NCBI GenBank assembly: GCA_943787745.1
Contig: CALSNJ010000002.1
Coordinates: forward strand, 372,001 to 436,000
DNA: 64,000 nt
Direction of reading: 5' to 3'
Origin: an uncultured Alphaproteobacteria bacterium
GTDB lineage: Bacteria > Pseudomonadota > Alphaproteobacteria > UBA6615
In this document: positions 8,682-34,930 of the stretch, piece after piece
How the letters are laid out: each line of letters opens with the position of its first letter
How positions within the stretch are numbered: the stretch's first letter is position 1
Notes under the pieces: generated by a model
Databases searched by the model: none
Seen by the model: only the letters and a program-made list of their open reading frames with translations
Told to the model about the DNA's origin: nothing
Program-made: the position numbers and the translations under genes

Positions 8682-9517
8682 TGGTCTTGCGGAATATTGA
8701 GTCCTATCCGCCGCAAGAGCCATTCACCGAGATCGGGGGCGAGTATCACCTGCGTGTGCAGGAGCTCGGTGCAGATGTTGCCGGTTCGTCTTTCGCCTAT
8801 GGGGATGACCCCTATCAGGAGGTCGCGGTGTTTCCCGCGAGCAAGCCCGATGGTCGTGTGGTTGTGTTCATGCATGGGGGTGGATGGACAAATGGCTACA
8901 AGGAATGGATGGCCTTTATGGCACCAGCCCTGAATGCGATCGGGATTACATTTGTGAGCCTGGGGTATCGGCTGGCGCCTGCCGTTCAATGGCCGGATGG
9001 CGTATTGGATGCGGCGGCGGGTGTTGCCTGGGTTTACGCAAACATCGCTGATCACGGTGGCGATCCAGATCGGCTGATCGTGGGCGGGCATTCCGCGGGT
9101 GGGCACTATGCAACCTGGCTGGCAGTGCGCGATGATTGGCAGGCGCGACTGAAAGTGCCTGCGGATGTGATCAAGGGCGCTGTGCCGGTTTCGGGTGTTT
9201 ATGATTTTACTGAAGGCAATGGCATGCCGGGCCGCCCGCGGTTTCTCGGAGAAGCAGAATCAAATGATCTTGATGCCAGTCCGATCCTGTCGATCAGGAA
9301 TACGCCACCGGTTCTGATGAGCTGGGGCGATCATGATTTTCCGCATTTGATCACGCAGGCCGAACGCATGACGGTCGCACTCGGAGATGCGAAAGCTTCG
9401 GTTGAGACGCTTGTTCTGGAGAATTGCGACCATCTTGGCGCGTCTTACGCGTGCGGCGAAACGTCGGCGCCATGGGTTCGGGCGCTCGACCAATGGTCCA
9501 GGGACTGCCAAATCTAG
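8681..9517 (+). CDS. Alpha/beta hydrolase, kynurenine-formamidase-like
   Basis: A 278-residue alpha/beta hydrolase whose HGGGW motif (His65 onward) is the hallmark of kynurenine formamidases and related amidohydrolases. The nucleophile elbow is GGHSAGG (Ser138), the acid is in WGDHDFP (Asp217) and the histidine in NCDHLG (His251). It starts with GTG one base inside the stop of the upstream dioxygenase gene (TAGTG), so expression is coupled. Following an Fe ring-opening enzyme that would release a formyl amide, a deformylating hydrolase is chemically sensible, but NicD itself has a different motif pattern. No other kynurenine-pathway gene is nearby. Followed by ~165 non-coding bases and an insertion sequence. 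Confidence 0.8.
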   Translation: MVLRNIESYPPQEPFTEIGGEYHLRVQELGADVAGSSFAYGDDPYQEVAVFPASKPDGRVVVFMHGGGWTNGYKEWMAFMAPALNAIGITFVSLGYRLAPAVQWPDGVLDAAAGVAWVYANIADHGGDPDRLIVGGHSAGGHYATWLAVRDDWQARLKVPADVIKGAVPVSGVYDFTEGNGMPGRPRFLGEAESNDLDASPILSIRNTPPVLMSWGDHDFPHLITQAERMTVALGDAKASVETLVLENCDHLGASYACGETSAPWVRALDQWSRDCQI

Positions 9518-9737
9518 GGTTTCCTGGAAACGGTAGTGGTTTCACGTGAGTGTGACAGAGATGGCAGAAGTGTCTGGCTATGCTGGGGATTTTGGTATGT
9601 TAACCTTCTTTTCAGACCCTCTCACTACCTTGCGATTTCTTAGAATGAATCGATGCCCCCATATGTCCGTCGTCATATAAATTGGAACAACTGGCGGGCT
9701 GATCCAAGGGAGGATCTGGCTCATCTGGTTTAAGATG

Positions 9738-10718
9738 TTAGGCGGCGTATTTGCGGTATTGCAAGCGCCGGGCCTTCATCGTTTTCCGTTTGATCCTTTC
9801 CCGTTGTTGTAAAATGGCTTGGCCCCGCCCGAAGTAGACGTCTGCAGGGGTAAGGTTGTTGATGCTCTCGTGGTAGCGTTGATGGTTGTAATGATCGACG
9901 AACGCCTCGATCTGCGCCTCAAGATCTGCCGGGAAGAAGTAGTTTTCCAGCAGGATGCGGTTCTTCAGCGTCTGATGCCATCGTTCGATCTTACCCTGAG
10001 TTTGCGGATGATACGGTGCACCCCTGACGTGCTTCATCTTCTTTTCATCCAGCCATTCCGCCAGCTCACCAGAGACGTAGCTGGAGCCATTGTCCGATAA
10101 CAGTCTCGGCTTGTGCACAACATGGGCCTGATCACAGTCCGATGCCTGCAAGGCGAGGTTCAGCGTCTCGGTCACATCGCTGGTCTTCATGGTCGTGCAC
10201 AGCTTCCAGGCAATGATATAGCGAGAGTAATCATCAAGGATCGTCGATAAGTACATCCAGCCCCAGCCGATGACCTTCAGATAGGTGAAGTCGGTCTGCC
10301 ACAGTTGATTGATCGCGGTCGTCTTTTCCTTGAACTCATCAGCAGCCTTGATGACGATGAATGCACGGCTGGTAATCAGATCAAGGGATTTAAGCAGGCG
10401 ATAGACGGAAGCCTCTGAGACAAAGTAGCTTTCTGTATCAGTGAAGCGTACTGCCAGTTCGCGAGGAGACAGTTCCGGCACATCCAGGGCCAGGGCAATG
10501 ATCCGCCGGCGAACGTCATCAGGAATGCGGTTCCAGACCCGCGATGGCCTGGGCGATTGATCTTCCAGGGCCTCCGAACCACCAAGCTGATAGCGGTCAT
10601 ACCAGCGATAAAACGTGGTGCGGGGGATACCTAGCTTGTCCAGCGTCTGCTTGATGGGCAGGTGAGACTGCTCGACAAGGCGGATGATCTCAAGTTTCTC
10701 AGATGCGGGGTATCTCAT
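9738..10718 (-). CDS. IS3-family transposase OrfB (DDE integrase core)
   Basis: A 326-residue transposase. An N-terminal helix-turn-helix (residues 1-45, IPRTTFYRWYDRY) precedes an rve integrase core with the DDE triad: Asp in WQTDFTYL, Asp in LLSDNGSSY, and Glu in QGKIERWHQ. It begins in the ATGA that also ends orfA, so it can be translated by coupling or as an OrfAB fusion by frameshifting as in other IS3 elements. No premature stop or missing catalytic residue is seen. Confidence 0.95.
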   Translation of the reverse strand: MRYPASEKLEIIRLVEQSHLPIKQTLDKLGIPRTTFYRWYDRYQLGGSEALEDQSPRPSRVWNRIPDDVRRRIIALALDVPELSPRELAVRFTDTESYFVSEASVYRLLKSLDLITSRAFIVIKAADEFKEKTTAINQLWQTDFTYLKVIGWGWMYLSTILDDYSRYIIAWKLCTTMKTSDVTETLNLALQASDCDQAHVVHKPRLLSDNGSSYVSGELAEWLDEKKMKHVRGAPYHPQTQGKIERWHQTLKNRILLENYFFPADLEAQIEAFVDHYNHQRYHESINNLTPADVYFGRGQAILQQRERIKRKTMKARRLQYRKYAA

Positions 10719-34106: not shown

Positions 34107-34184
34107 GGTGGCTGTAGCTCAGTTGGTTAGAGCGCCTGGTTGTGATCCAGGAGGCCGTGGGTTCAAATCCCATCAGCCACCCCA
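34107..34184 (+). tRNA. tRNA-His (GTG)
   Basis: The cloverleaf is complete: acceptor GTGGCTG/CAGCCAC, D-arm AGCTCAGTTGGTTAGAGC, anticodon stem CCTGG/CCAGG with loop TTGTGAT (anticodon GTG), T-arm GTGGGTTCAAATCCCAT. The extra 5' G (G-1, 34107) opposite the C discriminator is the His identity signal. CCA is encoded (34182-34184). Confidence 0.97.
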
Positions 34185-34521
34185 ATTTCTTCAAGGGTTT
34201 GGTGAGACATCGCTGAACCCTTTGTTGTGGCCGCGGTCAAGTCAGTGGCGCGATAGGTGACACGAAACGCGTGATCGGAAACGAACTCCGCGATTGATGG
34301 AGTTCAACCCTCCGGTCTGTGCTGGAATCAGTAAGCCTCAGTCCACGGTTTTGCGCGTTTGAAGCCAGCAAAGAGCGCCGAAAGGGCAACAACAGGTGCG
34401 GCATTCAAGAAAATATGTGGGAAACAGGTCGGAAGTGTGAGCATCCTTACCAGGTTTTCAAACACCAAATTTATCGCGTTGTAACCACCTTCGGCGCGCA
34501 AACTGACCAAGGAATTTTGAT
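34185..34521. other. Gap before the cysteine-repeat gene
   Basis: No gene is supported in these 337 bases. A weak hairpin, AAGGGTT (34193-34199) with AACCCTT (34216-34222) and a T-rich tail, may terminate the tRNA-His transcript. A second hairpin, GAACTCC (34283-34289) with GGAGTTC (34299-34305), lacks a T-run. The remainder probably holds the promoter and 5' leader of the cysteine-repeat gene; AGGA is present eight bases before its ATG. Confidence 0.4.
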
Positions 34522-34845
34522 ATGTCGAATACGCAGGGAATCCTGACCAATTTAGGCGATGAATCGCTCGACCCGACGCCCGTGCATGAAGCATTTGTCG
34601 TGTGCCTGAGCGGCGTTTGCCAAATGAGCGACGAAGCCCTCGACCAGGCACCCTCGCAGGAAGCATACGCATGTGTGATGCCTTGCTGGGTCAGTGACGA
34701 GCCTCTTGATCATGCACCAGCCAAATCAGCGCTGACATGTTGCATCTTCTCTTGCCGTGTTAGCGATGAATCGCTTGAGCCAACGACTGCTTTCGAAGCG
34801 CTTGCTTGCCGAAATGGTAGCTGCGGATTCTGTCGCGCGAGCTAG
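34522..34845 (+). CDS. Cysteine-rich protein of four tandem ~23-residue repeats
   Basis: A 107-residue product that is almost entirely four imperfect repeats starting at residues 12, 36, 58 and 81. Each begins with (S/G)DE(S/A/P)L(D/E), followed by Pro, then EA or SA, and ends in a cysteine cluster: C-x4-C, C-x3-C, CC-x3-C and C-x4-C-x2-C (ten Cys in all). There is no signal peptide or membrane segment. AAGGA lies upstream and a strong terminator follows, so it is monocistronic. I do not recognise the family. The repeated SDExLD segment resembles leader ends of some RiPP precursors but without Gly-Gly, so a multi-core peptide precursor or a metal-binding protein are both possible. Codon variation between repeats shows they are old and under coding constraint. 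Confidence 0.75.
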   Translation: MSNTQGILTNLGDESLDPTPVHEAFVVCLSGVCQMSDEALDQAPSQEAYACVMPCWVSDEPLDHAPAKSALTCCIFSCRVSDESLEPTTAFEALACRNGSCGFCRAS

Positions 34846-34894
34846 GAGATTTGTGCGGCACGTTAACGCGCCGCTGACCTAAGCCTTTTTGAGC

Positions 34895-34930
34895 GGGCCG
34901 ACGAGATATTTCGTCGGCCCGTTTTCTTTG
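34895..34930 (+). terminator. Rho-independent terminator after the cysteine-repeat gene
   Basis: Ten-base perfect stem GGGCCGACGA (34895-34904) and TCGTCGGCCC (34911-34920), loop GATATT, followed by GTTTTCTTTG. It lies 50 bases after the stop codon and isolates the gene from nnrDE. Confidence 0.92.

Follow-up and report, generated by a model that had tools for sequence, protein, structure and literature searches.

The gene at positions 34522 to 34845 of the window (the whole 64,000-nucleotide stretch of alphaproteobacterial DNA that was analysed) is, with good probability, a multi-module RiPP precursor for a LynD-like azoline-forming enzyme, with one recognition element for each core and with its copies dispersed in the genome. 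Paralogs and relatives of this gene were found beside a peptide-modifying enzyme, both in its own genome and in a sister species, and the window gene is thus most likely a precursor of a modified peptide.

A gene of four repeated units

The window gene starts with ATG and encodes a product of 107 amino acids, MSNTQGILTNLGDESLDPTPVHEAFVVCLSGVCQMSDEALDQAPSQEAYACVMPCWVSDEPLDHAPAKSALTCCIFSCRVSDESLEPTTAFEALACRNGSCGFCRAS, that includes 10 cysteines. A first-pass annotation, made from the window alone, had described four units of about 23 residues with ten cysteines at 34522-34845, and this was borne out by reading of the ORF and by the unit table. The gene and its signals are as follows.

34509..34514, + strand: ribosome-binding site AAGGAA (direct reading; kept in the upstream alignment of four paralogs)
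34522..34845, + strand: precursor gene, 107 aa, four units of recognition element plus core (ORF; paralog search and paralog alignment)
34549..34620, + strand: unit 1, NLGDESLD-PTPVHEAFVVCLSGVC (unit table)
34621..34686, + strand: unit 2, QMSDEALD-QAPSQEAYACVMPC (unit table)
34687..34755, + strand: unit 3, WVSDEPLD-HAPAKSALTCCIFSC (unit table)
34756..34842, + strand: unit 4, RVSDESLE-PTTAFEALACRNGSCGFCRAS (unit table)
34891..34924, + strand: intrinsic terminator, common to the paralogs (fold z -5.6)

The ribosome-binding site lies seven bases 5' of the ATG, and the terminator, 3' of the ORF, is a strong hairpin of 15 pairs; both signals had been annotated previously and both recur in the paralogs. 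The pattern [SG]DE.L[DE] is present four times in the protein. When the protein was shuffled 200,000 times, 200 of the shuffled sequences had this pattern once and none had it two or more times.

When the units of the window gene were compared in the coding frame, 0.82 differences per synonymous site and 0.36 per nonsynonymous site were detected, the synonymous sites being saturated such that no ratio is given. In the other two frames, the corresponding values were 0.46/0.45 and 0.39/0.50 (synonymous/nonsynonymous). The protein pattern is therefore what selection keeps, in agreement with the earlier proposal of selection on the protein, and the units have the look of ancient repeats whose protein sequence is constrained. 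Scans of the window protein against Pfam and NCBIfam gave no meaningful match.

Recognition-like elements and cysteine-rich cores

Of the 41 distinct units of the family, every one has D4 and E5, and 40 have L7. Each unit consists of an (L/V/I)xDExLD element, a short linker rich in Pro, Ala and Glu, and then a Cys-rich core. Cysteine was found at 0/574 positions in unit residues 1-14 and at 126/519 positions in the remainder, which divides the unit into a Cys-free recognition-like element and a Cys-rich core; a core rich in heterocyclisable residues and set apart from the recognition region is one of the features expected of YcaO/TOMM precursors. Units range in length from 20 to more than 30 residues, the spacing of cysteines varies freely between them, and a precursor has from 3 to at least 15 modules.

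The unit element equals motif 2 of NHLP/Nif11-type leaders, published as ELSDEQLDAVAGG and ELSDEELEAVAGG (PMC2887384), without the Gly-Gly. The resemblance of the SDExLD segments to the ends of Nif11/TOMM leaders had been pointed out from the window itself; it is upheld by this motif match and by the NHLP precursors found beside a LynD-like gene in genome G009 (see below), and the absence of Gly-Gly, likewise remarked upon, is evident in the unit table. No member of the window family matched the NHLP and Nif11 models (TIGR03793, TIGR03798; E up to 5). Taken with the presence of motif 2, this result indicates that the family keeps the recognition end of the leader alone, in repeated form. The recognition sequence of cyanobactins also resembles DExLD, a likeness that is not counted here as evidence.

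A home locus with a LynD-like enzyme

The first-pass annotation had called the gene an orphan and reported no maturase in the window. Both statements hold inside the window, where the copy has no enzyme neighbour and no maturase gene is present, but fail at genome scale. Three clear paralogs were identified in the same assembly (G000; best E 3e-20), two adjacent on contig C6 and one on contig C2, and a YcaO gene was found on C6. By contrast, the reported absence of a DUF692 enzyme from the window extends to the genome, with no DUF692/MNIO enzyme detected anywhere in it. One of the C6 paralogs has three central units that are identical in DNA, and the other is frameshifted. The terminator, CCGGGCCGG..GAGAT..CCGGCCCGTTT, is kept in all four copies, as are the start of the coding sequence and the ribosome-binding site; the common terminator and gene start indicate descent from one gene unit.

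The C6 precursor pair is arranged head-to-head (divergently) with a gene for a fused YcaO cyclodehydratase, the sole YcaO gene of the genome, which is not on the window's contig. This fusion matched the TIGR03882 leader-binding domain (E 2e-22), TIGR03604 (1e-60) and PF02624 (4e-72). Its nearest PDB chains were LynD, TruD and MusD, over the YcaO, E1-like and RRE regions, and its YcaO part matched the nearest solved heterocyclases at E 9e-79. A cyclic-peptide-type exporter (TIGR01194, score above cut-off) is encoded further along the cluster, and DUF697-like ORFs are found both between the precursors and next to them. Among the large cluster ORFs, no azoline dehydrogenase was seen, nor was a PatA/PatG-like protease among the large ORFs read around the cluster. 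The YcaO cluster on C6 is best explained as the home locus of the family.

Relatives in other genomes

Gene order of the C6 home locus is kept, spread over two contigs, in a second genome of the same genus (G003), which matches the MAG Alphaproteobacteria bacterium HXMU1420-4. On the first contig (C15, locus L036), two giant precursors of 308 aa (11 units) and at least 431 aa (at least 15 units) were found in the order precursor-DUF697-precursor-RND, adjoined by the same RND pump and HlyD. The second contig (C458, locus L078) has the order ABC-SPFH-YcaO, with the C-terminus of YcaO running off the contig edge and with the SPFH gene and exporter corresponding to those of C6. Identity to the home-locus genes was 53-74%, and 38-64% for the DUF697 genes. 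Thus, precursor, YcaO and RRE cluster together for the C6 paralogs and in G003, and not for the distal window copy. Two options had been offered for the window gene at the outset. The repeated-core peptide precursor is supported by the occurrence of paralogs next to an exporter and a YcaO fusion of LynD-like type, by the gene order of the second genome and by the split of units into Cys-free and Cys-rich parts; the metal-binding protein gained no positive support.

DUF697-like small proteins interleave with the precursors in both genomes (L009 7932-10312; L036 1242-1913 and 3006-3524) and are possibly immunity or membrane partners.

Within the order, precursors were detected in 3 of 24 genomes (G000, G003 and G020). 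YcaO genes, whether LynD-like or not, were present in 4 of the 24 (G000, G003, G009 and G010). Outside the order, no precursor was found among 385 genomes of the class or 398 of the phylum. A profile search of genome contigs with the paralog alignment revealed no relative, a contig search with the G003 precursor matched that MAG alone, and the plasmids, phages and viral contigs searched were likewise devoid of relatives. Genome G020, of another genus, has a three- to four-unit precursor (L037, about 9495-9800) but no YcaO gene was detected in it, which counts against the multi-module precursor reading. In G009, a LynD-like fusion (L079 9147-11396) adjoins NHLP precursors that end in ELSDEDLQNLAGG-(Cys core); as a control, these precursors matched TIGR03793 at 3e-23.

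Probable insertion of the window copy beside tRNA-His

In two other genomes of the genus, tRNA-His and nnrD are about 50 bp apart; in the window, 876 bp separate them.

34108..34184, + strand: tRNA-His bordering the inserted segment
34185..35060, no strand assigned: 876-bp segment that separates tRNA-His from nnrD and holds the precursor

Duplication of the tRNA 3' end (an attachment site) was looked for near the insert, and none was found. The best explanation is that the window copy is a dispersed family member inserted between tRNA-His and nnrD. Separation of precursor and enzyme has been described for NHLP precursors (PMC2887384) and for heterocycloanthracin precursors (PMC4603692), which are sometimes encoded away from their enzymes. 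The window copy is within a few kb of glnA-glnB, and the G020 precursor is about 1.2 kb from glnA.

Decay or misassembly at the home locus

By frameshift-aware alignment, the YcaO gene of G000 was found to have two frame-breaking frameshifts, near L009 6801 and 5645; alignment to the distant G009 gave two extra indels that compensate each other, in a region where the match is poor, and these were unsupported by the closer G003 enzyme. The C6 SPFH gene has several frameshifts, the first DUF697 gene has one, and one precursor is broken too.

L009 3185-8478, contig C6 of G000: stretch of broken genes (YcaO, SPFH, DUF697, one precursor), with flanking ABC, RND and HlyD intact

No frameshift was detected in ABC and HlyD by the same approach, and RND gave a single near full-length match. 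Homopolymer sequencing errors were considered as a source of the frameshifts and rejected, as no long homopolymers are present at the C6 sites. The frameshifts represent either decay of the pathway or local misassembly. That YcaO, SPFH, DUF697 and one precursor are broken counts against an active pathway, which may be decaying if the assembly is not at fault.

A sizeable minority of the probability falls to the window copy being a relic, left as the pathway decays and no longer processed. The broken genes beside intact neighbours, at sites without long homopolymers, are what such a history would leave. By contrast, the ORF of the window copy is intact, with a start site, a terminator and purifying selection between units, and so are the ORFs of the C2 copy and of the second copy on C6. 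A relic is compatible with the multi-module precursor proposed above as the origin of the gene and differs from it on present activity only.

Cassettes beside a UG4-type reverse transcriptase

Outside the window, the assembly has about ten cassettes of about 745 bp, in tandem arrays and as single copies.

G000 C5:2208-5225 (L077): cassette array
G000 C2:345951-347714 (L111 4952-6715): cassette array, 25 kb left of the window
G000 C2:1447771-1450231 (L109): cassette array
G000 C2:1124385 (L011): cassette, single copy
G000 C7:42548 (L110): cassette, single copy

Each encodes a near-invariant leader, MTINLTELRDEPLGKHPIQAA, and after it a conserved block that ends in (S/G)DEALD, and each of these two parts is followed by a hypervariable segment. 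Within the conserved blocks, pairs of copies are 0.72-1.0 identical, compared to 0.17-0.4 inside the two sharply bounded segments; the low values over the first ~120 positions are due solely to the truncation of four copies in that stretch. The first segment has lengths of 35-47, and the frame is kept in only 2 of 10. The hypervariable segments display pyrimidine-purine alternation of 0.65-0.69 (shuffle maximum 0.58), and cysteine accounts for 11-16% of residues in all three frames. The 3' part of each cassette repeats, in antisense, the tail of the adjacent reverse transcriptase gene; the reverse transcriptase, found beside several arrays, matched PADLOC RT_UG4 (E 2e-65) and RVT_1 (1e-14). 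In a survey, no function is assigned to UG4, and all that is given for it is a context of fimbrial genes, in 66% (PMC8934634). A phmmer search with the cassette leader found no match among the leader peptides of the PDB. One cassette protein carries TVSDEALD, which links the window-type and cassette branches.

Two UG4-like reverse transcriptase copies (L112, L113) were observed in G007, of the same genus, with no cassettes downstream; these apparently represent the arrays in their empty state. A phage-type integrase (L077 437-1423) and a Proteo-phage-1 RNA (1479-1560), beside the cassette array where C5 begins, suggest a mobile element. Beside the C2:1448k array, a DNA polymerase B domain (organellar/viral, PF03175) was found in a protein encoded at L109 2055-4454.

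It is doubtful that a single LynD-like enzyme acted on a library of precursors spread over the genome, in which each module has its own leader and of which a second branch, at least nine 745-bp cassettes, was diversified via a UG4-type reverse-transcriptase-linked process. Such a process would have written new core DNA of alternating pyrimidines and purines, Cys-rich in three frames, and placed it between perfectly conserved flanks. We regard a possible connection of reverse transcriptase to core diversity as a lead.

Metal binding and other enzyme classes

That the protein is an unmodified Cys-rich repeat protein for metal binding or storage, with its YcaO neighbourhood on C6 a coincidence, is improbable. 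Ten cysteines in 107 residues would suit this role, and both the G020 copy, in a genome where no YcaO was detected, and the window copy are apart from any such enzyme; however, YcaO, RRE and exporter cluster with the precursors in two genomes, and the DExLD motif matches RiPP leaders (PMC2887384). A metal site would also tolerate poorly the free spacing of cysteines and the range of unit lengths. AlphaFold prediction of the window protein from its single sequence gave no fold (mean pLDDT 39), which is weak evidence in the same direction. Modification by an MNIO/DUF692, radical SAM or lanthionine synthetase enzyme instead of YcaO is the least probable alternative. The Cys-rich cores suit those chemistries too and LSDEEL-type motifs are common to lantibiotic and YcaO precursors (PMC2887384), but no DUF692 enzyme was detected in the genome and the LynD-like YcaO is the sole enzyme found beside precursors, in two genomes.

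Proposed processing and its implications

For the multi-module precursor of a LynD-like enzyme, we propose that the N-terminal RRE of the fusion would bind the DExLD element, by analogy with the single leader of cyanobactins, and that the YcaO domain, using ATP, would cyclodehydrate cysteines of the following core to thiazolines. A protease would then free the cores, which would leave the cell through the TIGR01194-type ABC exporter. Azolines are likelier than azoles as products, since no dehydrogenase was seen among the large cluster ORFs. As every core has its own element, modules could be gained or lost freely.

Known multi-core precursors of YcaO enzymes have a single leader, by which the enzyme is guided along several cores. 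In this family, every core appears to come with a leader element of its own, and a single chain can have at least 15 of them. Should this be borne out, a minimal DExLD element would suffice for recruitment without the rest of the NHLP/Nif11 leader, the processivity of LynD-type enzymes could be tested with one docking site versus many, and peptide modification could be multiplexed in a format that the family already provides. The range of LynD-type chemistry on Cys-rich cores would also now extend to a small, almost unsampled alphaproteobacterial order.

Comparison with known systems

RiPPs modified by MNIO/DUF692 enzymes (bufferins) differ in their enzyme, which was not detected in this genome. 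Multi-core microviridins and graspetides (AMdnA, plesiocin, thuringinin) have several cores per chain and one enzyme (PMC5934393), but rely on ATP-grasp ligases, have Thr/Ser/Asp/Glu cores and use one leader per precursor; a second leader raised full modification of a multivalent graspetide in an engineered construct only (PMC13003496). Heterocycloanthracin, with its Cys-Xaa-Xaa repeats, is similarly a Cys-rich YcaO substrate that is sometimes distal (PMC4603692), yet its repeats lie within one core behind one leader. The thiovarsolin precursor VarA (YcaO-TfuA) is a YcaO-associated repeat precursor with imperfect repeats and one product per repeat (PMC6511847); unlike the window family, its APR cores are thioamidated by YcaO-TfuA, with no LynD-type fusion and no Cys-rich cores.

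NHLP/Nif11 precursors (TIGR03793, TIGR03798) have at the leader end a motif 2 that matches the unit start xLSDEALD, and they occur with TIGR03882-TIGR03604 fusion cyclodehydratases, in some cases with the two encoded far apart (PMC2887384). The window family differs in that the motif is repeated and neither an NHLP/Nif11 domain nor Gly-Gly is present.

Cyanobactins (PatE/TruE/LynE; PatD/TruD/LynD) share with the C6 enzyme the fusion of E1-like and YcaO parts with an N-terminal RRE, that of a LynD/TruD-type heterocyclase, and share with the precursors several cores per chain and a recognition element upstream of Cys cores. Cyanobactin precursors have one leader element, RSI, with short RSII and RSIII at each core (PMC4663559). 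By contrast, the window family, from an alphaproteobacterial host, repeats a leader-like element before every core in up to at least 15 units, and no PatA/PatG proteases were seen in the C6 cluster, so that the combination of single RSI, RSII/RSIII and PatA/PatG is not that of this family. Precursors of this kind are already known; what is new is a family of precursors for a LynD-type YcaO enzyme in which every core has its own recognition element.
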